Below are positions 14,230 to 63,644 of a stretch of DNA of 64,000 bases, piece by piece. This DNA is from Pseudomonadota bacterium (lineage in GTDB: Bacteria > Pseudomonadota > Gammaproteobacteria > Steroidobacterales > Steroidobacteraceae). The translations under genes and the position numbers were made by a program. Within the stretch, counting starts at the first letter, position 1. Each line of letters opens with the position of its first letter. Under the pieces are notes generated by a model that searched no databases, was not told where the DNA came from, and saw only the letters and a program-made list of their open reading frames with translations. The stretch covers positions 4,547,716 to 4,611,715 of the forward strand of contig JBBCGI010000001.1 of the NCBI GenBank assembly GCA_037200975.1, read 5' to 3'.

Positions 14230-14556
14230 TCAGAGGATGTCGTCCTCGCCCGTCACGCCGCCTTCATCCTCCCAGCGATTCACTTCCCAGACTTCCTCGC
14301 GGCTGAACTTGAGCCGTGCGCCGGCGCCGCCGCCGTTCTCGGCGATGAACACCACGCCGGCCGCTTCGAGCGTCGCGCGCAGGCGGCGGCGCGTGGTCTC
14401 GTCGGGCCGGCGAAAGCGCTTCTCGAAGTCGGCGATGGTCTGGATGTCGATCGACGCGGATTGCGAGAGCTGCGCCTGCGACCATTCGATGAGCGCGCGT
14501 GCGGCACGGCATTGCGCGGAGGTGAGGGCGGTGGGCGTGACGACGGCGGTGTTCAT
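14230..14556 (-). CDS. Small XRE-type helix-turn-helix regulator
   Basis: About 108 residues from an ATG at 14556, convergent with the metF gene (13 nt between stops). The middle reads SAQCRAARALIEWSQAQLSQ followed by IADFEKRFRRPDETTRRRL. This is the pattern of short Cro/C1-type HTH proteins that recur in proteobacteria (R.AR..l.WSQ..LA....v....i...E.g...P......L). The tail GVVFIAENGGGAGARLKF is also typical of that group. No partner toxin or target can be named. It lies downstream, in the same orientation, of the flagellinolysin gene. Confidence 0.7.
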   Translation of the reverse strand: MNTAVVTPTALTSAQCRAARALIEWSQAQLSQSASIDIQTIADFEKRFRRPDETTRRRLRATLEAAGVVFIAENGGGAGARLKFSREEVWEVNRWEDEGGVTGEDDIL

Positions 14557-14620
14557 ACGCGCGAGCGTACTCCGCGTCCGTCTCGCTGTCATGACGGAGG
14601 CAACCCGCGGTCGGCGCCGG

Positions 14621-16390
14621 CTAGAACTGCAGCAGCTGCAAAGTGTTTATCGGCAGCGCATTCGCCTGCGCGGCGATGGCCGTCCCGGCCTCACGCAGGA
14701 TCTGCGCGCGCGTGAGCTCGGCGGTCTCGGTGGCGAAATCCGCGTCCACGATGCGCGAGCGGCTGGCGCTGATGTTCTCGTTCATGACGGCCAGCGTATT
14801 GACCGTCATCTCCATGCGGTTCTGGGCCGCCCCGAGCCGCGCCCGCTCGCTGGCCACCGCATCGATCGCCGCGTCGAAGATGCTGATGGAGTACTGCGGG
14901 TTGCCTTCGATGTTCACGGCCTGAAGGTTCAACGTCGACGCCTGCACGGCGCGCATCTCGATGGTGATCGTCTGGTTGGCGTTCGCGCCCACCTGGAAAT
15001 TGAGCATGCCGATGGTCGAGAGCGTGAGCGTCGCATGGCTCGTCGTGTCGACCGCCGCGAACGAGGCGTCTAGGTGATGCAGCGGATGTTCGGAGAACGA
15101 TGCGAAGTCGGGCACGACGCCATCGTTGCTCGTGATGCGCGTGCCCCCCGGCGTGGAATCAGCGCCGCCGATGGCGCCGGTGTCGGCGTTCTGCAGGCTG
15201 CCGTCGTCGAACAGGCCGGCGATGTAGTCATTGCCGGCTTGACCGCTCGCGAACAGGGCGGTCATTGACGCCACGCTGTTGAAATCCATGCCCGGATGCG
15301 CGCTTGCGGCGGCCGCCAGCGCGTCGTCGAGCGTCGAAAGCGGATGCGCGGATAGATAGGCGAAGACTTCACGGATGCCGCTGCCGCCGTTGGCGAGGAT
15401 TTCGCTGTGGATGTACCGCGCGGCGGCGTAACCGGCCGAATACAACTGCTCGCTGCCATTGGCCGTAAGGTAGGTGCTCATCAACGTGGCGACCTTCGCT
15501 GCCGTGCTGCCGCCCGCCGTGTTGCTCAGGTCGTTGAACAGCCGCGTATCGGCGCCGTGGATGAACTCGGCCGTGCCTTCGATGAACCACAGCGGCAGGT
15601 CGTGCATGTCCATCGAGCGCGCCATGATGGCGTGCGTCAGTTCGTGCGCGATGATGCGGTCGTTGTTGAGTCCGCTGGCGCCGGCGCCGTTGGGCCAGTC
15701 CGCCGGGTCGAAATCCGAGAAGTCGACATTGAGCGTCATGCCGGTGAGTTTGCCGGTCGCGGTCTCGTACCCGGTGAAGCTCACGGCCGCAAGATAGGGC
15801 TGTCCCTCGACGAATTGGACTTCGATGGGTGCGCCGTCGCCTTCGATGCCGAAGAACTGTTCGACCAGCGCCTCTCCCTCGCGCAGCCAGGAACGCTTCA
15901 ATGCATCGATGATCGCGAGTTTGTCGGTGGCGGTCGGCTCGGGCCCGCCGGAGACAACGGCAGCGCCACCCAGGCCGCCGCCCAGGATCTTCACGCCGTT
16001 GAAATCCGTTGCGGCGCCGATGCGGTCTATCTCGGCGATCAATTGCGTGACTTCCGCCTGCAAGGCCCTGCGATCGCCCGCGCTGTTGGTGGCGTTGGCC
16101 GCCTGCAATGCGAGTTCGCGGCCGCGCTGCAGAAGATTGGCCATTTCCGCGAGTCCCCCTTCGCCGGTCTGCAGCAGGGACACCGCGTCCATGGCATTGC
16201 GCGACGCCTGCGTGAAGCCGCGGATCTGCGCCGTCATGCGTTCGGAAATGGCGAGGCCAGCCGCGTCATCGCGCGCGGAATTGATCCGCAAGCCCGAAGA
16301 CAGCCTTTGCAGACTGCGCGCCACTCCCTCGTCCGCACGCGTGAGCATGCGCTGCGAGTTCAGCGCCGGAATGTTGGTGTTTATCTGCAC
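14621..16390 (-). CDS. Flagellin with internal HExxH metallopeptidase domain (flagellinolysin type)
   Basis: A 589-residue flagellin fused around a protease. The N-terminal ~145 residues are a normal flagellin D0/D1 ([40 protein letters not shown]). The last ~90 residues are the normal C-terminal D1/D0 ([36 protein letters not shown], ending NTLQLLQF). Between them lies a ~350-residue segment instead of the usual variable D2/D3. It carries HELTH at residues 249-253 and, 17-21 residues on, WFIEGTAEF (E271 or E275 as third zinc ligand), a gluzincin signature. This is the architecture of the flagellinolysin family, whose members make proteolytically active flagella. The start is the GTG at 16390, with GGACAGG upstream. 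No other flagellar gene is in the window, so it is a stray flagellin locus. Confidence 0.93.
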
Positions 16391-16694
16391 CTGTGGGACC
16401 TGTCCATTCGACAGATTAACGGCGTCGTTTTGCCGCCCTGAATCGGGGGAATCCCGCAACGCGCGCGGTGGCCACGGGCATCGCGACGCATTCGGTAGTT
16501 CGGACTAAAGTCCATCCAGCCGCGGCCGCTAACTACGGCAGGGCAGATACCGATCGCGGGATTTCAGGATCCCCGGCGTTCGAGCAGCGGTCCGCAATGG
16601 TCCGGCGCCCGCGACCCGTCCCCAATTCCGCGGCAAGCGTGTCCCAGTTCGCCCACGGTCGAATCGCGGGGTAAGTCACGCGGAGAATCCGCGC
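16391..16694. other. Intergenic region between flagellinolysin and DUF3237 genes
   Basis: A 304-nt region upstream of both divergent genes. On the minus strand GCCGTTAA (complement of 16416-16423) is one base off the sigma-28 flagellar -10 element GCCGATAA and lies 26 nt before the flagellin start, but no good matching -35 TAAA is seen. No convincing gene, repeat or terminator was found in the rest. Confidence 0.4.
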
Positions 16695-17174
16695 ATGACG
16701 GACAGCATTCCCGCAGCGCCGCGACTGGAATTCGCGATGACCATCGCGATCAACCTCGGCAAGGTCTACTGGGTCAAGCCCACCCAATACGGCTCGGAGC
16801 GCGCGGCGGTCTACCTGCTCGACGGCACGGTAACCGGGCCGCACATCCACGGCATCGTCATTCCCGGCAGCGGCGGAGACTTTCCCTGGCTGCGCCCCGA
16901 CGGCGTCATCGATTTCGACGCGCGCTACATGCTGCAGACCGACGACGGCGCGAACATCTACTTCCAGAACCGCGGCTATCGCTGGGGCACACCCGAGGCC
17001 ATGGCGAAGATGGCGCGGCGCGAACCGGTCGACGACGACTCTTATTACATGCGCGTGGCGCCCAAGTTCGAGGCGCCGGCCGGCAAGTACGACTGGCTCA
17101 ACCGGCACGTGTTCGTAGGCCGCGCGGAAAAGACGCCCGAGGGCAATCGCATCCACTACTTCAAGGTGCTGTGA
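16695..17174 (+). CDS. DUF3237 family protein (first copy)
   Basis: A 159-residue protein of the DUF3237 family. The recognisable core is a small beta barrel: an opening strand FAMTIAINLG, then GPHIHGIVIPGSGGDFPWLR, then DGVIDFDARYMLQTDDGANI followed by FQNRGYR, and a C-terminal YDWLNRHVFVG. The biochemical role of this family is not established; members often sit beside GMC oxidoreductases and dehydrogenases in catabolic operons. Here it opens an operon and its stop overlaps the start of the aldehyde dehydrogenase. A second DUF3237 lies at 20298 between two GMC oxidases. No signal peptide is visible, so it is probably cytoplasmic. Confidence 0.85.
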   Translation: MTDSIPAAPRLEFAMTIAINLGKVYWVKPTQYGSERAAVYLLDGTVTGPHIHGIVIPGSGGDFPWLRPDGVIDFDARYMLQTDDGANIYFQNRGYRWGTPEAMAKMARREPVDDDSYYMRVAPKFEAPAGKYDWLNRHVFVGRAEKTPEGNRIHYFKVL

Positions 17175-18679
17175 TGAATGCCCCGGCACCCATGATCTCC
17201 CAGGTGGCCAGGACGCGTGCGGCCGGTTTCACCGCGCAGCCACGCGAGTTGTTCATCGGCGGCCAATGGCGCGCGGCACAGAGCGGCGAGACTTTCGAAG
17301 TCGTCGATCCCGCCAGTGCGACGGTGTTCGCGCGCGCGGCGGCCGGTGATGCCGCGGATATCGACGCCGCCGTCCGTTCGGCGCGCCGCGCATTCGAATC
17401 GCCGCCGTGGAGCGCGATGACGCCGGCGCAACGTGCCCGCCTGCTGCTCAAGCTCGCGGACCTCATCGAAGCGAATGCGGACGAGATCGCACTGCTCGAA
17501 ACGCTCGACAACGGCATGCCATTCCGCATGGCGAAGTTCGGCGGCGTGTTCGGAGCTGCCGAGAGCCTGCGGTATCACGCGGGCTGGGCGACGAAGCTGC
17601 ATGGCAGCACCGTGAACCTGAGCACGCCTGGCGAGTGGCATGCGTTCACGTTGCGCGAGCCGGTCGGAGTCGTCGGTCAGATCGTGCCGTGGAATTTTCC
17701 GTTCGTGATGGGCGTCGCGAAGATTGCGCCGGCTCTCGCGGTGGGCTGCACGGTGGTGCTGAAGCCGGCCGAACAGACGCCGCTCACTACCCTGCGGCTG
17801 GGCGAGCTGATTGCGGAGGCGGGCTTCCCGGCGGGCGTGGTCAACATCGTGACCGGATTCGGTGAGAAGGCCGGGCGTGCGCTGGTGGCGCATCCGGACG
17901 TGAACAAGATCGCGTTCACTGGTTCGACCAGCGTGGGCAAGGAGATCCTCAAGGCCTGCGCCGGCAATCTCAAACGTGTCACGCTCGAGCTCGGTGGCAA
18001 ATCCCCGGTCATCGTGTTTCCCGATGCTGCCATCGAGCCGGCCACCGAAACCGCGGCGCGCGGCATCTTCTTGAACTCCGGCCAGGTGTGCGCTGCCGGG
18101 TCGCGGCTGTTCGTCCACGAGAAGGTTTTCGACCAGGTGGTCGAAGGCGTGGTGGCGCGCGCGAAAAAGCTGACGCTGGGAGCGGGCACCGAGCCTGCCA
18201 CCGATCTCGGCCCCGTGGTTTCCGACGAACAACGCCGGCGCGTGCTCGGCTACATAGAGTCCGGCCGTGCTGACGGTGCGCGCGTGTTGACCGGCGGAGG
18301 CGCGGTATCCCGCCCGGGATATTTCGTGGAGCCTACCGTGCTGGCCGACACGACGCGCGAAATGAAAGTCGTGCGCGAGGAAATATTCGGTCCGGTGCTG
18401 TGCGCGATGAAGTTCAGCGACATCGACCTCAACGCCATCGCGCGCCTGGCCAACGACACCGAGTACGGCCTGGCCGCGAGTATCTGGACGCGCGACATCT
18501 CCACCGCGCACAAACTGGCGAAGAAAATCCGCGCGGGCTCCGTGCGCATCAACACGGCCGGTACGGTCGATCCGGCGATGCCGCTCGGCGGCTTCAAACA
18601 ATCGGGCTGGGGCCGCGAAAACGGCCGCGAAGGAACCGAGATCTACACCGAAGTGAAGTCGGTGACCGTGGGCCTGTGA
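17174..18679 (+). CDS. Aldehyde dehydrogenase
   Basis: An NAD(P)-dependent aldehyde dehydrogenase of about 501 residues that oxidises an aldehyde to the acid. The ATG at 17174 overlaps the preceding stop (TGATG); a GTG one codon earlier is also possible. Motifs: PWNFPFVMG (cofactor cleft), LKPAEQTPL, FTGSTSVGKE (NAD-binding glycine motif), LELGGKSP (general-base Glu) and NSGQVCAAGSR (catalytic Cys). The C-terminal FKQSGWGRENG segment is typical of the class 1/2 betaine/aliphatic group. The adjacent GMC oxidases are the likely source of the aldehyde. Confidence 0.93.
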   Translation: MNAPAPMISQVARTRAAGFTAQPRELFIGGQWRAAQSGETFEVVDPASATVFARAAAGDAADIDAAVRSARRAFESPPWSAMTPAQRARLLLKLADLIEANADEIALLETLDNGMPFRMAKFGGVFGAAESLRYHAGWATKLHGSTVNLSTPGEWHAFTLREPVGVVGQIVPWNFPFVMGVAKIAPALAVGCTVVLKPAEQTPLTTLRLGELIAEAGFPAGVVNIVTGFGEKAGRALVAHPDVNKIAFTGSTSVGKEILKACAGNLKRVTLELGGKSPVIVFPDAAIEPATETAARGIFLNSGQVCAAGSRLFVHEKVFDQVVEGVVARAKKLTLGAGTEPATDLGPVVSDEQRRRVLGYIESGRADGARVLTGGGAVSRPGYFVEPTVLADTTREMKVVREEIFGPVLCAMKFSDIDLNAIARLANDTEYGLAASIWTRDISTAHKLAKKIRAGSVRINTAGTVDPAMPLGGFKQSGWGRENGREGTEIYTEVKSVTVGL

Positions 18680-20301
18680 ATTACGACTACGTCATCGTCG
18701 GCGCGGGTGCTGCCGGCTGCGTGTTGGCGAATCGGCTGAGCGAAGACCCGCAGGCGCGTGTGTTGCTGATCGAAGCCGGCGGCAGCGACGATCGCTTTCT
18801 CATTCGTATGCCGCTCGGGTTCCTGCGCGCGTTCCGCGATCCTTCGATCACCTGGGGCTACAGCAGCGAGCCCGAACCACACCTCGACGGCCGGCAACTG
18901 GCAGTTCCGCGCGGCCGCGTGCTCGGCGGGTCGTCGTCGATCAACGGCATGTTTTTCATGCGCGGCCATTCGCGCGACTTCGATGGCTGGCGGGATCTCG
19001 GTTGTACCGGTTGGGGTTACGCGGACGTGTTGCCGTACTTCAAGAAGCTCGAATCGAGCTGGCGCGGCGCGGTGCCTTACCACGGAGCGCACGGCCCCAT
19101 GCCCATCGCGCCGATCGACACCGCGCGGCTGCTGCACGAGCCGCTGATGCAGGCGGCGAGCGCGGCCGGTTTCTTCACCAACGACGACATACACGGACGG
19201 CTCGAAGAGGGCTTCGCGCGCGGCGAGATCACCATCGATTCGCGCGGGCGGCGGGCCAATGCGTCGCGCGCCTATCTACACCCGGTCCGGCATCGCGCCA
19301 ATCTGGAAATCATGCAGGGTGCGTTGACGACGCGTGTGTTGTTCGACCGCCGTCGCGCGGTGGGCGTCGAGCTGCGGCGCGGCGCCGAAATCCGCCAGGT
19401 ATTCGCGCAACGCGAGGTGATCCTGTGCGGCGGCACGTTCAACTCGGCCCAGTTGTTGATGTTGTCGGGAGTGGGGCCGGCCACGGAGCTGCGTGGGCTT
19501 GGCATCAAGCCGATCGTCGACCTGCCGGGCGTCGGTGGCAATCTGTCCGAACATCTGCGCGCCGGATTGCAGTACACCACGCGGGAGCCGGTGTCGTTCC
19601 TGCGCGAGCTGCGCGCCGATCGCGCCGCCTGGTCTCTCGCCCGCTGGTTTGTATTCGGCCGCGGCGCGTTCGCCACGCAGATCAACAGTTGCAATGTCGT
19701 GTTGCGTACCGATCCGTCGCTGCCGCAGCCGGACATCCAGCTCATGTGCAACCCGGTGCGGATGGATGCCAGGATCTGGTTTCCGCTGTTGAGCCGCCGG
19801 CAGCAACACCTGCTGACGGTGGATGCCGTGCTGCTGCATCCGGAATCGCGGGGCCGCGTGAGCCTGCGGTCGGCGGATCCGGCCGCCAAACCGCGCATCG
19901 AGTTCAATTGCCTGTCCACGCCCGGCGACCTCGCGACATTGCGCCGCGGTCTGCGCAGTGCGCGGCATATCTACGCGACTGCACCGCAGTCGGAGCTCAT
20001 TGACGAGGAGGTCGTGCCGGGCCACGGGACAGCCAGCGACGACGCGCTCGATCGGCACATCCGCGCCACGGCGGGAGTTACACAGCATCCGGTCGGCACC
20101 TGCTCGATGGCCGCAGGTGCGGGACAGGTTGTCGATCATGAACTACGCGTGCTCGGCGTCGACGGCCTGCGCGTCGCCGATGCGTCGATCATGCCGACCG
20201 TGCCGGGCGGCAACACCTACGGCGCAGTGCTGATGATCGCCGAACGCGCCGCCGATCTGATTCGCGGGCGCTCGTTGCCGCCCGCGCTGGAGCGTCCATG
20301 A
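18676..20301 (+). CDS. GMC family FAD-dependent oxidoreductase (first copy)
   Basis: A glucose-methanol-choline type flavoprotein alcohol oxidase/dehydrogenase, 541 residues. The GTG at 18676 overlaps the aldehyde dehydrogenase stop (GTGA). The N-terminal ADP-binding loop VGAGAAGCVLANRL, the second GMC signature GRVLGGSSSINGM and the C-terminal HPVGTCSMA (active-site His) plus GLRVADASIMP are all intact. Bacterial members of this size usually oxidise primary alcohols to aldehydes with a membrane or quinone acceptor. Spacing to the following DUF3237 gene is an ATGA overlap, so this GMC and the DUF3237 protein are made together. Confidence 0.93.
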   Translation: MNYDYVIVGAGAAGCVLANRLSEDPQARVLLIEAGGSDDRFLIRMPLGFLRAFRDPSITWGYSSEPEPHLDGRQLAVPRGRVLGGSSSINGMFFMRGHSRDFDGWRDLGCTGWGYADVLPYFKKLESSWRGAVPYHGAHGPMPIAPIDTARLLHEPLMQAASAAGFFTNDDIHGRLEEGFARGEITIDSRGRRANASRAYLHPVRHRANLEIMQGALTTRVLFDRRRAVGVELRRGAEIRQVFAQREVILCGGTFNSAQLLMLSGVGPATELRGLGIKPIVDLPGVGGNLSEHLRAGLQYTTREPVSFLRELRADRAAWSLARWFVFGRGAFATQINSCNVVLRTDPSLPQPDIQLMCNPVRMDARIWFPLLSRRQQHLLTVDAVLLHPESRGRVSLRSADPAAKPRIEFNCLSTPGDLATLRRGLRSARHIYATAPQSELIDEEVVPGHGTASDDALDRHIRATAGVTQHPVGTCSMAAGAGQVVDHELRVLGVDGLRVADASIMPTVPGGNTYGAVLMIAERAADLIRGRSLPPALERP

Positions 20302-20768
20302 CTGGCGCGAACGAAATGCCCGCCAGCGAGCTTGCGATCAGGCTGGTACACGCCTTCGACATCCGCATCGACTTCGCCAGCCGTCTGATCTTCGGTCCGG
20401 TGTCGGGTGGTGCCAAACAGGGTTATGTGCCGCTGAGCAGCGGCATCATCCGCGGCCCGCGCCTCAATGGCCGCGTGATGGAGCACAGCGGGGCAGATTG
20501 GGCCACGGTCCGCACGGACGGCGTGGTGGAGACCAATGCGCACTACATGCTCGAGGCCGACGACGGCACGCCTATCTACATACAGAACCGCGGCTACATC
20601 TACAACACCCGGCCCGATGCACCGGGGCCGGCATATTTCCGCTGCACGCCGTACTTTCGTGCGCCGGTGGGCGTCCACGACTGGCTCAATCGCACCGTGA
20701 TCGTGGGCGGTGGCGAGCGGCACCAGCACCCGGATTACACGCTGTTCCGCTATTTCTCCGTCGAATGA
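20298..20768 (+). CDS. DUF3237 family protein (second copy)
   Basis: A 156-residue DUF3237 protein, start ATG 20298 overlapping the preceding GMC stop. It shares the family core with the copy at 16695: GPRLNGRVMEHSGADW, then RTDGVVETNAHYMLEADDG, YIQNRGYIYNTRP, and HDWLNRTVIVGGG near the end. It differs clearly in the loops, so it is a paralogue rather than a recent duplicate. Function is unknown. The alternation DUF3237-ALDH-GMC-DUF3237-GMC suggests that each DUF3237 partners an oxidase, for example as a product isomerase/hydrolase or chaperone; that is speculation. Confidence 0.85.
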   Translation: MTGANEMPASELAIRLVHAFDIRIDFASRLIFGPVSGGAKQGYVPLSSGIIRGPRLNGRVMEHSGADWATVRTDGVVETNAHYMLEADDGTPIYIQNRGYIYNTRPDAPGPAYFRCTPYFRAPVGVHDWLNRTVIVGGGERHQHPDYTLFRYFSVE

Positions 20769-20793
20769 TCCGGCCCGGAACGATCCGCCCGGC

Positions 20794-22401
20794 ATGAAAC
20801 GCTTCGACTATATCGTCGTTGGTGGCGGGTCTGCCGGCTGCGTGCTCGCGGCACGGCTCAGCGAGGATCCGTCGATCCAGGTCGTGTTGCTCGAAGCCGG
20901 CGACGATGAGCGCAAATACTTTCGCATCCCGATGCCGCTGGCCTGGCGCGACGCGTTCAAGGATCCGGACCTGTCGTGGGGTTTCACCACCGAGGCCGAA
21001 CCGTTCGCCGACGGCCGCTGCATTCCCGCGCCGCGCGGCAAGGTGCTGGGCGGCTCGAACTCCGTCAACGGCATGATGTACATGCGCGGTCACCGGCGCG
21101 ATTACGATGACTGGGAAGCGCGCGGGCTGCCGGGGTGGGGGTACGAAGGCGTGTTGCCTTACTACCGGCGGGCCGAGACGAACTGGCGCGGCGCGTCGCG
21201 TTTTCACGGCGCACACGGGCCGCTGACGACTTCGCACCACATGCCGGATGACTTCATCTATCCGCGCATCATCGATACCGCCGAAACGCTGGGCTTCCGG
21301 CATCTCGACGATTTTCACGGCGAGGAGGGCGAAGGATTCTCGACGCCCGATTTCAACATCCATGCCGGCACGCGGGGCAGCACCGTTGCGCGGTATCTGC
21401 GGCCGGCGATGTCGCGGCCCAATCTGGACGTGCGCGTGAATACGCGGGTCCACCGGCTGGTGCTCGTCAACGGCCGCTGTGTGGGTGTCGATGCCGAGTC
21501 GTCGGGATCGGTCGACAGGCTGACCGCCGACCGCGAAGTGATCCTGGCGGCCGGCGCTTTCAATTCGCCGCAGCTGCTGCAGTTGTCGGGCATCGGAGCG
21601 CCTGCCGATCTCGAACCACACGGCATCAAGGTGCTCCATGCGCTGCCGGGAGTGGGCGCGAACCTGCAGGATCATCAATCCACCGCGGTCGTGTTCGGCG
21701 CGAGCGGCGATTTCTGCTTCGATCCGAAACTGCGGCTCGACCGGCTGGCGCTGTCGGTTCTCGAATGGAAGTTGTTTCGCACCGGGACGATCGGCAAGGC
21801 GCCGGTGTCGGCGCAGGGCCTGGTACGCACGCGGCCCGGGCTCGACCGTCCCGACCTGCAGATGCTGATTTCGCCGGTGTCCATCTTCGCGCGGCCGTGG
21901 TTTCCGGGCTGGCGCAAGGGTGAGGGCCATCGCCTCTCGATGGCCTGCGTGCTGCTGCATCCGGACAGCCGCGGCAAGGTCAGCCTGCGTTCGGCGGATC
22001 CCACGGCGCCGCCGCGCATCCTGCTGAATCTGCTGCAGGCCGAGAGCGACCGCCAGGCGCTGCGCGGGATCGTACGATTCGTGCGCCGTTTCTTTGCCAC
22101 CGCGCCGGCTTCGGAGCTGGTCGCTGCCGAGCAATTTCCGGGACCCGGGATCGAATCGGATGCGCAGATCGATGCGCACCTGCGCAAGACGCTGGGGACC
22201 GCCATGCATCCGACCAGCTCCTGCGCCATGGGTGTGGACTCCATGGCCGTCGTCGACGGTCAGCTGCGAGTGCACGGATTGTCGGGACTGCGCATCGCCG
22301 ATGCGTCCATCATGCCGGCCATCGTCGGCGGCAATACGAATGCGCCGGTGATCATGATCGCGGAAAAAGCGGTCGACCTGATTCTGGGTCGCCGGGTTTA
22401 G
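20794..22401 (+). CDS. GMC family FAD-dependent oxidoreductase (second copy)
   Basis: A second GMC flavoprotein, 535 residues from the ATG at 20794, 25 nt after the second DUF3237 gene. The FAD loop VGGGSAGCVLAARL, GKVLGGSNSVNGM and the C-terminal HPTSSCAMG with GLRIADASIMP are present. Compared with the copy at 18676 the active-site neighbourhood differs (HPTSSCAMG versus HPVGTCSMA), so substrate preference may differ. It likely oxidises an alcohol in the same pathway. Confidence 0.93.
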   Translation: MKRFDYIVVGGGSAGCVLAARLSEDPSIQVVLLEAGDDERKYFRIPMPLAWRDAFKDPDLSWGFTTEAEPFADGRCIPAPRGKVLGGSNSVNGMMYMRGHRRDYDDWEARGLPGWGYEGVLPYYRRAETNWRGASRFHGAHGPLTTSHHMPDDFIYPRIIDTAETLGFRHLDDFHGEEGEGFSTPDFNIHAGTRGSTVARYLRPAMSRPNLDVRVNTRVHRLVLVNGRCVGVDAESSGSVDRLTADREVILAAGAFNSPQLLQLSGIGAPADLEPHGIKVLHALPGVGANLQDHQSTAVVFGASGDFCFDPKLRLDRLALSVLEWKLFRTGTIGKAPVSAQGLVRTRPGLDRPDLQMLISPVSIFARPWFPGWRKGEGHRLSMACVLLHPDSRGKVSLRSADPTAPPRILLNLLQAESDRQALRGIVRFVRRFFATAPASELVAAEQFPGPGIESDAQIDAHLRKTLGTAMHPTSSCAMGVDSMAVVDGQLRVHGLSGLRIADASIMPAIVGGNTNAPVIMIAEKAVDLILGRRV

Positions 22402-22411
22402 GGGGAGACGA

Positions 22412-23668
22412 GTGGCGAAGCCCGTTTATTACGGCTGGATATTGTTAGGCGTCCTGTGGCTGGTGTTCGCCTTCAACCTGGGGTTCCCCGCGTATGGCGG
22501 GCCGGTCATCAATTCGGCGATGGCGCGCGAGCTCGGCTTCAGCCGCGAGACGCTCGGACTGATGACGTCGTTCTACATCATCATGTCGGGATTGCCGGGG
22601 CCGCTGGTCGCGATGTCGGTGAACCGCTTCGGCGTGCGGCGTACCTTGCTCGCGGGCAGCGCCATGAATGTCGCCGGCGCCGCGTTCATGGCCACGGTGG
22701 CGAACTCGGGGCTCGCCGCGTATTTCGGTTTCGGCCTGCTGATCGGCGGCGGTGTCTGCACCGGTGCCGCCATCGCGAGCCAGACCGGCCTGTCGCGCTG
22801 GTTCGTGCGGCGGCGCGCGATGGCGATGTCCATCCTGTATTCGGCTGGCGCCATCGGCGGCTACATCGCCACCAAACACGTATTGCCGGGCGTCATCGCA
22901 GCCACTGGCAATTGGCGCAATGCCTGGTGGGTCATCGTCGGACTGTCCGCGCTCGCGGGCGTGCTTGCGCTGCTGTTCGTGAAGGAACGTCCCGAAGACA
23001 TGGGGCTGGTCGCCGACGGCGAGAATCTGGCCGCGCCCGATGCGCCACCCAAACCCCGGCCGGCATTCGTCACGACGACGCCCTGGGAGTTCCGCGACGC
23101 GGTGCGCGCGCCCAGCTACTGGCTGATCCTCGGCTCCTTGTTAGGTGGCAGCGGCGGGTTCACGCTGTTCCTCGCGCACGGCATCGTGCATCTGCAGGAT
23201 CTCGGCCACGCGGCGACGGTGGGCGCGGGCGCGATCGCCACCATGACGGTGACCGGCCTGCTCGCCAAGGTGATCATCGTTTTATTCGGCGACCGGATCG
23301 ATCCGCGTTACCTGTGGGCGGTGTTCATGTTGTTCTTCGGTGCGGGGCTCGTGATCATCGTCAACGCGCGCACGCAACTGCAGGTCGACCTGTTCGCGAC
23401 CTGTCTCGGAATCGGCTTCGGTGGAGGGATCGTCTGCTTGATGACAGTGCTCGGCAACTACTACGGACTCAAGGCGTTCGCCTTGTTGTCGGGAATCGCG
23501 ATCGCCATCAACACCACGTTGTCGGCGCTGGCCCCGTTCATCGCGGGGTTCCTGTTCGATCACGGATACGGCTATGCCGGCACGTGTTACTTCCTCGCCG
23601 CCTGGTGTTTCGCCGGCGCGGTGGTGCTGTTCGTCCTGCGCCGGCCGGTGCTGAAGGCGGTGGCATGA
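22412..23668 (+). CDS. MFS transporter (OFA/monocarboxylate-like)
   Basis: A 12-helix MFS permease, 418 residues, start GTG 22412 with GGGGGAGA upstream. The opening YYGWILLGVLWLVFAFNLG with a following SRETLGLMTSFYIIMSG resembles the oxalate/formate-antiporter and monocarboxylate transporter branch, whose members move small carboxylates. The central loop RPEDMGLVADGE is also typical of this branch. Its stop overlaps the ATG of the acyl-CoA synthetase, which suggests import of an acid or polyol substrate and activation in one unit. Confidence 0.88.
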   Translation: MAKPVYYGWILLGVLWLVFAFNLGFPAYGGPVINSAMARELGFSRETLGLMTSFYIIMSGLPGPLVAMSVNRFGVRRTLLAGSAMNVAGAAFMATVANSGLAAYFGFGLLIGGGVCTGAAIASQTGLSRWFVRRRAMAMSILYSAGAIGGYIATKHVLPGVIAATGNWRNAWWVIVGLSALAGVLALLFVKERPEDMGLVADGENLAAPDAPPKPRPAFVTTTPWEFRDAVRAPSYWLILGSLLGGSGGFTLFLAHGIVHLQDLGHAATVGAGAIATMTVTGLLAKVIIVLFGDRIDPRYLWAVFMLFFGAGLVIIVNARTQLQVDLFATCLGIGFGGGIVCLMTVLGNYYGLKAFALLSGIAIAINTTLSALAPFIAGFLFDHGYGYAGTCYFLAAWCFAGAVVLFVLRRPVLKAVA

Positions 23669-25680
23669 AACAAATCGACGAGGGTCAATTGTTGTGGAAG
23701 CCCGGCGCGCGACGCCTCGCGCGTTCCCACCTGACCCGGTACCTGAACTGGCTCGATCAGCGTGGCCGGAAGTTCGATGACTACCAGGCATTGTGGCAAT
23801 GGTCGGTCGACGATCTCGAAGGGTTCTGGGGCTCGATCGTCGAATTTTGCGGCGTGAAATTTTCGCGCCCCGCGAGCCGCGTGCTCGGCAAACGCGAGAT
23901 GCCCGGGGCAGAGTGGTTCCCGGGCGCGACGCTCAACTATGCGGAACACGCGCTGCGCCATGAGCGGCCGGGCGTCGACGCGCTCATTCATCTGTCAGAG
24001 CGCGCCGCGCTCCAGACGATGCAGTGGCCGGAGCTCGCGCGGCAGGTGCGAGTTCTCGCCACGCGCCTGCGTGCACTGGGTGTCGCGCCCGGCGACCGTG
24101 TGGTGGCCTATCTGCCGAACACGCCGGAGGCGGTTATCGCGATGCTGGCCACGGCCAGCATCGGCGCGGTGTGGTCGAGCTGCGGGCCGGATTTCGGCGC
24201 GCGTGGCGTGCTCGATCGGTATGCACAGCTCGCGCCGAAGCTCATTTTCTGCGTCGACGGTTACAGCTACGGCGGCAAGCTGTTCGACAAACGCGCCGAG
24301 ATCCGCGACATCATCGCGGGGCTGCCGTCGCTCTCGCAGGTCATCCACCTGCCGTACCTCGACCGTACCGATCTGACTCCGCTCACCGAACGCTCGCTGT
24401 TCTGGGCGGACGTGCTCAGCGGCGCCGACCCGGGGCGCGAAGCGTTCCAGTTCGAACAGGTGCCGTTCGCGCATCCGCTGTGGATTCTGTTCTCGTCCGG
24501 CACCACCGGTCTGCCCAAGGCGATTGTCCACTGCCACGGGGGCATCACGCTCGAGCAGTTCAAGCTGTTCCACTTCCACATGGATCTGCACGCGCGGCAG
24601 CGCATGTTCTTCTTCACCAGCACCGGCTGGATGATGTGGAATTTTCTTGCGAGCTCCCTGCTGATGGATGCCGTGCCCGTGCTCTACGACGGCAACCCGG
24701 CCTGGCCCACCCCCGACCTGCTGTGGAAAATGGCCGACGACACCGGCGCGCATCTGTTCGGCGCCAGCCCTACCTACCAGGCCATCCTCGAGAAGGCCGG
24801 TATCGTGCCGAAGGACCGCTTCGAGCTGGCCGAGCTCGAGACCATCGTGCTGGCCGGCTCTCCGGTGACGGCCGAGTGCCATGCGTGGTTCTACGACAAC
24901 GTGAAGGCGGACCTCTGGGCGCACTCGGGCAGCGGCGGCACCGACATCTGCTCCGGACTCGTTGGCGGCGTGGTGAACCTGCCTATCTACGCGGGCGAGA
25001 TCCAGGCGCGGCAGCTGGGCGTTGCCGCGTATGCTTTCGACGAGCAGGGCAGGCGGCTGGTCGACCAGGTCGGCGAACTCGTGTTGACCGAACCCATGCC
25101 GTCGATGCCGGTGCGCTTCTGGGGCGACGAGGACGGCAGCCGTTATCGCGATTCGTATTTCGACCATTACCCGGGCATCTGGCGGCACGGCGATTTCTTC
25201 CGCATCAATGCGCGTGGCGGTTGTTTCGTGCTCGGACGTTCGGATGCGACGCTGAACCGTCACGGCGTGCGCATCGGCACGGCCGAGATCTACCGGTCGC
25301 TGGCGGGTGTTCCCGAGATCGAAGACGCGTTGATCGTCAATCTCGATCTGCCGGGTGGAAAGTTCTTCATGCCGCTGTTCGTCAAACTCAAGGAAGGGCG
25401 GCGGCTCGATGCCGCGCTCACTGAGCGCATCCGGGCGCATATCCGCCAGGAATATTCGCCGCGCCACGTGCCGGACCGGATCCTCGAAGTGGGCGCGATT
25501 CCGTACACGCTGACCGGCAAAAAGATGGAGGTCCCGGTGCGTCGCATCCTCATGGGCATGCCGGTTGCGCAGGCGGCCAACCGCGCCGCCATGGCGAATG
25601 TCGAATCGCTCGACTTCTTCACCGACTACGCCGCCAAACAGACGGACTTCTCCATAACCTCAGGAAAATCCACGAGCTAA
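23665..25680 (+). CDS. Acetoacetyl-CoA synthetase-like acyl-CoA ligase
   Basis: An adenylate-forming ligase of 671 residues that activates a carboxylic acid with ATP and CoA. Length, the N-terminal cap (LWKPGARRLARSHLTRYLNW) and motifs LFSSGTTGLPKAIVH (A3, phosphate loop), HSGSGGTDICSG, GRSDATLNRHGVRIG (A8 hinge) and TGKKMEVPVRR (catalytic Lys) fit the acetoacetate-CoA ligase (AACS) group. The start ATG overlaps the MFS stop. It ends the operon that begins at 16695 and would feed the final acid into beta-oxidation. The true acid could be a different 3-oxo or ether acid. Confidence 0.9.
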   Translation: MKQIDEGQLLWKPGARRLARSHLTRYLNWLDQRGRKFDDYQALWQWSVDDLEGFWGSIVEFCGVKFSRPASRVLGKREMPGAEWFPGATLNYAEHALRHERPGVDALIHLSERAALQTMQWPELARQVRVLATRLRALGVAPGDRVVAYLPNTPEAVIAMLATASIGAVWSSCGPDFGARGVLDRYAQLAPKLIFCVDGYSYGGKLFDKRAEIRDIIAGLPSLSQVIHLPYLDRTDLTPLTERSLFWADVLSGADPGREAFQFEQVPFAHPLWILFSSGTTGLPKAIVHCHGGITLEQFKLFHFHMDLHARQRMFFFTSTGWMMWNFLASSLLMDAVPVLYDGNPAWPTPDLLWKMADDTGAHLFGASPTYQAILEKAGIVPKDRFELAELETIVLAGSPVTAECHAWFYDNVKADLWAHSGSGGTDICSGLVGGVVNLPIYAGEIQARQLGVAAYAFDEQGRRLVDQVGELVLTEPMPSMPVRFWGDEDGSRYRDSYFDHYPGIWRHGDFFRINARGGCFVLGRSDATLNRHGVRIGTAEIYRSLAGVPEIEDALIVNLDLPGGKFFMPLFVKLKEGRRLDAALTERIRAHIRQEYSPRHVPDRILEVGAIPYTLTGKKMEVPVRRILMGMPVAQAANRAAMANVESLDFFTDYAAKQTDFSITSGKSTS

Positions 25681-26501: not shown

Positions 26502-26551
26502 TCGCGCATACTCCGCCAGGCCTTTCAGGCCAATCCACGGGGAGTAGCTCA

Positions 26552-62439: not shown

Positions 62440-63540
62440 ATGACTTCGTTTTTACCCTCGCGCGCCGATCACGTCGGCAGCTTCCTGCGTCCTGAATATC
62501 TGCTCGCCGCGCGCGAACAATTTCAGCGCAAGCAGATCGACGCGGCGAAGTTGCGCGCGGTCGAGGACCAGGCGATCGCCGAGGTCGTTCGCATGCAGGA
62601 AGACGTCGGCCTGCATGCGATCACCGACGGCGAATTCCGCCGCACGTATTTTCACATCGACTTCCTCAAACAACTCGACGGCGTGCAGTCGGACGATCCG
62701 AAAATCGTGATCAAGGCGGATGGTAGTGAGGAGCTCGCGCCGCCGGTAATGCGGGTCACCGCGAAGGTGCGTCATGCACGCGACATCCAGCGAGCGGATT
62801 TCGAGTTCCTCAAGCGACACACGCAGCGGACGCCGAAGGTGACGATTCCGTCGCCCACGATGCTGCATTTCCGCGGCGGTCGCGCCGGTATCAGCAAGGA
62901 GCATTATCCGGATCTCGAGCAGTTTTACGCCGACGTGGCGCAGGCGTATGGCGATGAGCTGCGTTCGCTCGCCAAGGCCGGCTGCACCTACGTGCAGATG
63001 GACGACACCAATCTCGCCTATCTATGCGACCCGAAGATGCGCGAGGCGGCGCGCGCACGCGGCGACGATCCGAACGAGCTGCCGCATCGCTACGCGACGT
63101 TCATCAATCGCGTGGTGGCGCAGAAGCCCGTGGGCATGATACTCGCGGTGCATCTATGCCGCGGCAATTTCAAGAGCACGCATGCGGCCGAGGGCGGGTA
63201 CGAGCCGGTCGCCGAGGCGCTGTTGTCGGAGATGAACGTGGATGCGTATTTCCTCGAATACGACGATGAGCGCAGTGGGGATTTCCGGCCCTTGCGATTC
63301 CTGCCGAAGGGGAAGGTCGTCGTGCTGGGTTTGATCACGACCAAGCTCGGCGCGCTCGAATCCAGGGACGACATCAAGCGTCGCATCGACGAGGCGGCGA
63401 AGTATGCGCCGCTCGAGCAGCTGGCCTTGTCACCGCAGTGCGGCTTCTCCAGCAGCTTTCACGGCAACGACATCCAGATGAGCCAGCAGACGGAGAAGCT
63501 CAAGCTGGTGGTGGATATCGCCCGCGAGGTGTGGGGATAA
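62440..63540 (+). CDS. MetE C-terminal-like zinc methyltransferase
   Basis: A 366-residue protein of the cobalamin-independent methionine synthase (C-terminal barrel) superfamily. SRADHVGSFLRP opens as in these proteins. Zinc ligands are placeable: H238 and C240 (HLCRGNF), E273 (FLEYDDE) and C334 (SPQCGFSS). Short MetE-like proteins transfer methyl or alkyl groups to thiols, but not always to homocysteine; some act on other carbon skeletons. The N-terminal folate-binding half of true MetE is missing. The start at 62440 follows GGAGAG. The last codon and TAA enter a long palindrome. Confidence 0.85.
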   Translation: MTSFLPSRADHVGSFLRPEYLLAAREQFQRKQIDAAKLRAVEDQAIAEVVRMQEDVGLHAITDGEFRRTYFHIDFLKQLDGVQSDDPKIVIKADGSEELAPPVMRVTAKVRHARDIQRADFEFLKRHTQRTPKVTIPSPTMLHFRGGRAGISKEHYPDLEQFYADVAQAYGDELRSLAKAGCTYVQMDDTNLAYLCDPKMREAARARGDDPNELPHRYATFINRVVAQKPVGMILAVHLCRGNFKSTHAAEGGYEPVAEALLSEMNVDAYFLEYDDERSGDFRPLRFLPKGKVVVLGLITTKLGALESRDDIKRRIDEAAKYAPLEQLALSPQCGFSSSFHGNDIQMSQQTEKLKLVVDIAREVWG

Positions 63541-63644
63541 GTCGGTGCCGGGTCGGACTTAGGAAAATTGGCGCATGAGCCCTCGTTTCGGCTAACGTGC
63601 CTCCGGCCAATTTTCCTAAGTCCGACCCGGCACCGACTTATCCC
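63534..63644. repeat. Long perfect REP palindrome between MetE-like and VOC genes
   Basis: Two 38-nt arms (63534-63571 and 63607-63644) are exact inverse copies around a 35-nt spacer. Each arm contains the full 25-nt REP (63538-63562 plus, 63616-63640 minus), identical to the one left of the RAYT. The TAA stop of the MetE-like gene starts the first REP. The ATG of the VOC gene immediately follows the second arm, so no Shine-Dalgarno sequence lies outside the palindrome. Confidence 0.93.

Follow-up and report, generated by a model that had tools for sequence, protein, structure and literature searches.

A flagellinolysin gene away from the flagellar cluster of a Steroidobacteraceae genome, and sigma-28-type sites upstream of its relatives

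Protease-bearing flagella have been published but are little studied. The flagellinolysin family, whose flagella are able to digest proteins, was described in 2017 (PMC5595980). Two members are characterised in PMC5595980 and PMC7643111, with proteolytic activity published for both and surface display for one; in these papers, the natural substrate is not settled. FliA(H) of Clostridium haemolyticum is found in filaments together with ordinary flagellin, and its gene lies in the flagellar cluster of a Gram-positive pathogen (PMC5595980). In HgrFlaMP of Hylemonella gracilis, a Gram-negative host, a gluzincin with HExxH at residues 249-253 is inserted into a Flagellin N/C frame, and the gene is located away from flagellar genes (PMC7643111).

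Here we describe a gene from a 64,000-nucleotide stretch of a bacterial genome of the family Steroidobacteraceae; this whole stretch is called the window below. The window protein resembles FliA(H) in architecture and catalytic motif, but differs in the location of its gene and in its host. It shares the features of HgrFlaMP (L119) named above, the gluzincin insert being a prediction, yet HgrFlaMP takes a different place in both trees described below and has other neighbours, and its activity is proven, whereas the window protein is known from its sequence. As a member from Steroidobacteraceae and from a divergent clade with the motif HELTH, it adds a sister for comparison.

The window protein and its predicted active site

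The gene and the features of its product are as follows.

14621..16390 (-): flagellinolysin gene, 589 aa, GTG start at 16390, stop at 14621-14623
15977..16390 (-): flagellin N-terminal D0/D1 region, residues 1-138 (PF00669, 136.9 bits)
15185..15919 (-): metallopeptidase domain as modelled, residues 158-402 (NF033876; pLDDT 82.6; VIA-align Z 12.1 to a collagenase)
15632..15646 (-): HELTH, residues 249-253; by analogy, the two histidines would bind zinc and Glu250 would act as general base
15569..15580 (-): E271-G-T-A274; comparison with E262/A265 of FliA(H) suggests the third zinc ligand and the hydrophobic basement Ala (PMC5595980)
14624..14890 (-): flagellin C-terminal D1/D0 region, residues 501-589 (PF00700, 79.9 bits)

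The frame is uninterrupted over its 589 codons and keeps all zinc-site residues. An alternative start further upstream, a TTG at 16459, would yield a protein of 612 aa. We favour the GTG at 16390 because the Pfam flagellin profile begins at residue 3 when the protein is read from this GTG and because the nearest relative, L046, has a TTG at the matching codon. In the Pfam search, Flagellin_N (PF00669) covered residues 3-138 with 136.9 bits and Flagellin_C (PF00700) residues 503-587 with 79.9 bits. Since both exceeded their cut-offs, the D0/D1 frame is complete, and the first-pass annotation, which had described such a frame around HELTH and WFIEGTAEF (residues 268-276), is confirmed on this point.

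That annotation had also read the protein as flagellinolysin-type and had proposed a profile search. The NCBIfam flagellinolysin equivalog NF033876 scored 340.3 bits against a cut-off of 205 (1.9e-101), with the whole profile covered by residues 110-519. Because a curated flagellinolysin model covers these residues at 1.9e-101, the protease motif is not a chance occurrence. The Peptidase M9 collagenase model of Pfam (PF01752) reached 25.5 bits over residues 249-328, just below its gathering cut-off of 26, as would be expected for a domain akin to clostridial collagenases yet separate from them (PMC5595980). By sequence, the window gene is thus confirmed as a flagellinolysin, a newly found member of a published and biochemically proven family (PMC5595980, PMC7643111).

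A whole-family profile search gave 10 full-length relatives, one of which (L041) is below the NF033876 cut-off. The window protein and all 10 agree at H249, E250, H253, E271, A274 and E275; loss of the two histidines or the glutamate in close homologues, earlier named as a sign of an inactive domain, was thus not seen in these relatives. All 13 loci over or near the cut-off have an ORF with HExxH, the ORF having been picked by script for holding this motif. Named genomes were scanned as well; the whole protein returned no relatives, and the protease-domain alignment gave 117, of which 80 (L046-L125) were kept. HExxH is present in 79 of these 80 loci and the EGxAE stretch in all of them, a conservation that is partly selected for, since both EGxAE and the first two residues of HExxH are part of the search patterns. 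The exception is L080, from a Nitrosomonas metagenome-assembled genome, with HEMVP and a disrupted C-terminus. The distance from the second histidine to the third-ligand glutamate is 18 in the window protein, compared to 25 in FliA(H) (H237-E262; PMC5595980). A spacing of 18 is also the commonest among the loci having both motifs (35 of 79), the remainder ranging from 19 to 26. D223 in NVDFSDF was picked by eye as a candidate calcium-site residue by comparison with Asp206 of FliA(H), a protein outside the alignment.

A structural model, likewise proposed earlier, gave a divided result. The protease domain modelled alone had a mean pLDDT of 82.6 and a pTM of 0.83, while the pTM of the full-length protein was only 0.50. 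VIA-align placed collagenases at the top and among the other best matches of the domain (Grimontia collagenase, Z 12.1, rmsd 3.5, 190 residues aligned; ColH peptidase domain, Z 11.2), amid many M1 aminopeptidases; the domain is largely helical, and such Z values can be unspecific. A Foldseek search of the domain against the PDB, however, gave no match at E <= 0.001 (best E 0.14). The modelled matches are compatible with a possible gluzincin fold, and the HExxH gluzincin-type site is shared with the M9 collagenase peptidase domain. Together with the profile score and the zinc-site residues of the 10 relatives, they support the flagellinolysin-type reading.

Genomic setting and origin of the gene

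The host genome is a single contig of 4.65 Mb, in which the gene occupies positions 4,562,336-4,564,105, about 234 kb from the flagellar cluster. The ordinary FliC (612 aa, 4,326,911-4,328,749) has FliD, FliF, FlhA, FlhB, an FliR-type export protein and rod and rod-binding proteins nearby, and FlgL-like and FliS-like genes of the cluster were named by eye. Flagellin_N matched at three places in the genome, the flagellinolysin gene included. A tblastn search of the 64-kb window with the ORFs of the host flagellar cluster found no other flagellar genes beyond two short weak pieces near 63.5 kb (63462-63639, 8e-6, 12-50 aa), which are probably low complexity. With these pieces set aside, the earlier statement that the locus is free of other flagellar genes was borne out, and the suggestion of an extra flagellin beside the main one is confirmed by the ordinary FliC and flagellar cluster elsewhere in the genome.

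Comparison with two congeners, G1090 and G1091, showed that the gene belongs to a block of 11-12 kb that is absent at this site in both.

14587..25678 (.): block of ~11 kb absent here in two congeners, with flagellinolysin, two DUF3237, aldehyde dehydrogenase, two GMC oxidoreductases, MFS transporter, acyl-CoA-synthetase-like

The second GMC oxidoreductase and the synthetase-like gene were named by eye, the second DUF3237 by its 42% identity to the first. G1090 follows the window DNA to 14535 and resumes at 26526 after about 135 bases; in G1091, window positions 14586 and 25679 are separated by about 0.9 kb. The search elsewhere in the congeners covered, of the block genes, flagellinolysin and DUF3237. 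The difference may be either a gain in the host or a loss in the congeners. The G+C content of the block is similar to that of its surroundings. A mobile element carrying the block was considered and rejected: inspection by eye found no integrase or transposase among the ORFs, and no direct repeat of more than 10 bases is common to both ends. At the left edge of the variable block, downstream of the flagellinolysin gene, a 120-aa protein without a Pfam match is encoded (14230-14592, minus strand); it is 84-86% conserved in two of three congeners.

A tie to the adjoining catabolic genes, put forward in the first-pass annotation, was not supported by the homologues, since no neighbour family occurs in more than 15 of the 80 loci. 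No partner gene common to them was found; the largest neighbour cluster (15 of 80) is made up of Pseudomonas and its near relatives, followed by two with 9 loci each. Smaller clusters combine distant hosts but look like common families. What does speak for a tie is that flagellinolysin and the alcohol/aldehyde-oxidation genes are jointly missing at the site in two congeners, and they may thus have come or gone together. In Pseudomonas alcaligenes, the flagellinolysin gene adjoins genes for 2-isopropylmalate synthase and an M23-type peptidase (by eye).

Flagellinolysins are sparsely distributed. Counting the host, the NF033876 cut-off was exceeded in 2 of 217 genomes of Steroidobacteraceae (the other being G215), in 2 of 296 genomes of the order sample and in 7 of 369 of the class sample; the phylum sample gave 6 of 398. 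The gene was not found in three congeners (67, 87 and 93% complete) and thus looks dispensable. Among 197 plasmid records, none covered 80% of the query; there were partial matches only, and those among the matches listed resembled ordinary flagellins.

Two quick trees, without bootstrap, were calculated. The protease tree contains 77 of 81 possible rows; L080, L092, L112 and L114 were left out for want of a detected flagellin N or C part. It pairs the window protein with L046 (support 89) within a four-member clade that includes L047 and L048 (support 99), with a program warning of long branches meeting nearby. The flagellin-frame tree contains 74 of 107 rows, as 33 near-duplicates, mostly from Pseudomonas, Nitrosomonas, Acidovorax and Methyloversatilis, had been dropped beforehand. 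Window and L046 are again joined (SH-aLRT 96), also together with L047 and L048 (89), and the host FliC stands apart. The split of flagellinolysins from ordinary flagellins, all 30 of the latter being from the host's order, has a support of only 75. All four clade members have HELTH. Since the flagellin and protease parts give the same tree neighbours, the gene probably arrived whole, that is, it came into the host as a ready-made unit. A new insertion of the protease into the host's own FliC was rejected, as the flagellin-frame tree groups the window protein with flagellinolysins and not with that FliC.

L046, from the uncultured gammaproteobacterium Biocath_Gamma_008, shares 64% protease-domain identity and HELTH with the window protein and has no detected flagellar gene in its flanks of 2.2 and 5.4 kb. 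The flagellinolysin of Povalibacter uvarum (L006/L091) comes from the same family, Steroidobacteraceae, and has the same architecture, but only 113 of 275 middle-region positions are identical. Because it is placed away from the window gene in both trees, the two Steroidobacteraceae copies were probably acquired separately.

Sigma-28-type sites upstream of flagellinolysin genes

Upstream of the window gene, we found the following candidate.

16416..16442 (-): degenerate sigma-28-type candidate TTCAG-N14-GCCGTTAA, whose first base lies 52 bases before the start codon (P = 0.053, 300 shuffles)

The host fliC has TTAAG-N14-ACCGATAC upstream (P = 0.010), and L046 differs from the window in having a strict TTAAG-N14-GCCGA. 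By the sigma-28 consensus, we take the pattern T[CAT]AAG-N14-GCCGA to be sigma-28-type. Within 220 bases upstream, this strict pattern occurs in 28 of 78 loci compared to 10 of 6720 same-size flank windows, where the pattern was set after inspecting the same upstream regions and the control windows consist largely of coding DNA. L047 and L114, the remaining two of the 80 loci, had no usable upstream region. The 28 sites lie 56-162 bases upstream of the flagellin match. Pseudomonas or Ectopseudomonas account for 13 of the positive loci; Vogesella, Psychromonas, Chitinibacter, Formivibrio, Andreprevotia, Povalibacter, Hylemonella and Neiella are also represented. The other 50 of the 78 loci, including 15 from Nitrosomonas and 7 from Acidovorax, have no strict site. 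In a matrix test on the 59 loci with a recognised start, 23 were used to build the matrix and L047 was too short; 15 of the 35 others gave P <= 0.05. The region between the divergent flagellinolysin and DUF3237 genes also holds GGACTAAAGTCC (16502-16513), a 12-bp perfect palindrome. It was considered as a possible conserved regulatory element and dropped; it occurs once in the genome.

In 73 of the 80 relatives, tblastn with the host flagellar-cluster ORFs detected no flagellar gene in the flanks, which mostly measure 5-6 kb per side and are shorter at contig ends; because the queries come from one gammaproteobacterium, flagellar neighbours in other groups may be missed. There were matches in 7 loci, and L048, L092, L110 and L117 were counted as having real flagellar neighbours. 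The matches in L094 and L096 are to a regulator or another ORF, and that in L080 is seemingly to the distal portion of its own disrupted gene. As L048 belongs to the window's own clade, this clade is not uniformly unlinked from flagellar genes. Among the 28 loci with a strict site, 26 had no tblastn match to flagellar ORFs. Judged by title and abstract, none of the papers listed in a literature search reports sigma-28-type promoters at flagellinolysins, and the word "promoter" is absent from the main texts of PMC5595980 and PMC7643111. Such sites at flagellinolysins without detected flagellar neighbours may be a new observation, and we regard this as the part most worth following.

We tentatively suggest, as an idea with somewhat less than an even chance of being right, that flagellinolysins are self-contained, transferable single-gene modules, usually away from flagellar clusters and often with their own sigma-28-type promoter. 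Such a gene could plug into the flagellar regulon of a new host, and a single transfer would then make an ordinary filament proteolytic; within its genus, the window gene would be a recent case of this. With few detected flagellar neighbours and many sigma-28-type sites, the spread and expression of flagellinolysins become directly testable.

Proposed function and unusual relatives

We consider it highly probable that the window protein is a secondary flagellin which co-polymerises with FliC and displays a collagenase-like zinc endopeptidase on the filament surface. It would be exported by the flagellar export apparatus of the host and, by analogy with the characterised members, join ordinary FliC as a minor subunit through the conserved D0/D1 helices, so that the predicted endopeptidase site (H249, E250, H253, E271) would carry out proteolysis on the flagellum. 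Both catalytic activity and filament incorporation are what we infer from this analogy, which also suggests Ca2+ dependence and broad cleavage before large hydrophobic residues (P1'). Likely uses would be general peptide foraging, or attack on surface proteins and flagellins of other cells.

Three alternatives, whose likelihoods are not all mutually exclusive, were weighed against this reading. The protein might be exported through the flagellum and act mainly as a released protease instead of a filament subunit, a possibility raised in the discussion of PMC7643111 and paralleled by C. jejuni FlaC, a flagellin described as being secreted through the flagellum without a structural role. However, neither polymerisation region is damaged, and at 88 of 137 positions the N-terminal region is identical to that of the host FliC, to which it is as close as to the second-best of the 10 relatives. 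The C. haemolyticum protein, moreover, sits in the filament, with which most of the activity sediments (PMC5595980), and we thus hold mainly released action to be very unlikely. It is unlikely as well that the gene is a silent or decaying acquisition, not expressed in the host, which would be compatible with family membership. Its 589-codon frame is intact with every zinc-site residue kept, and although the GTG start, the degenerate sigma-28-type site and the patchy presence point in that direction, L046, its nearest relative, combines a TTG start at this codon with a strict site. A catalytically dead, purely structural outer domain is hardly credible given that the zinc-site residues do not vary among the 10 full-length relatives and that 13 of 13 script-picked ORFs have HExxH; in its favour is L080, with HEMVP and a disrupted C-terminus.

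Three further sequences are of note. In L044:1204-2454 (G928:C16; wider stretch L137), a frame of 417 aa that has no flagellin domains encodes a flagellinolysin-type protease domain over the NF033876 cut-off (237.8 bits); Pfam gives only a weak Peptidase_MA_2 match, and tblastn found no flagellar gene in the surrounding 14 kb. It is perhaps a stand-alone relative bearing on the origin of the protease domain. L041:520-3795 encodes a giant flagellin of 1092 aa, in which Flagellin_IN repeats accompany the same protease domain (here at 180 bits and under the cut-off). L045:1405-3215 is a flagellinolysin fragment beside an IS3-type transposase ORF and is, judged by eye, apparently interrupted.
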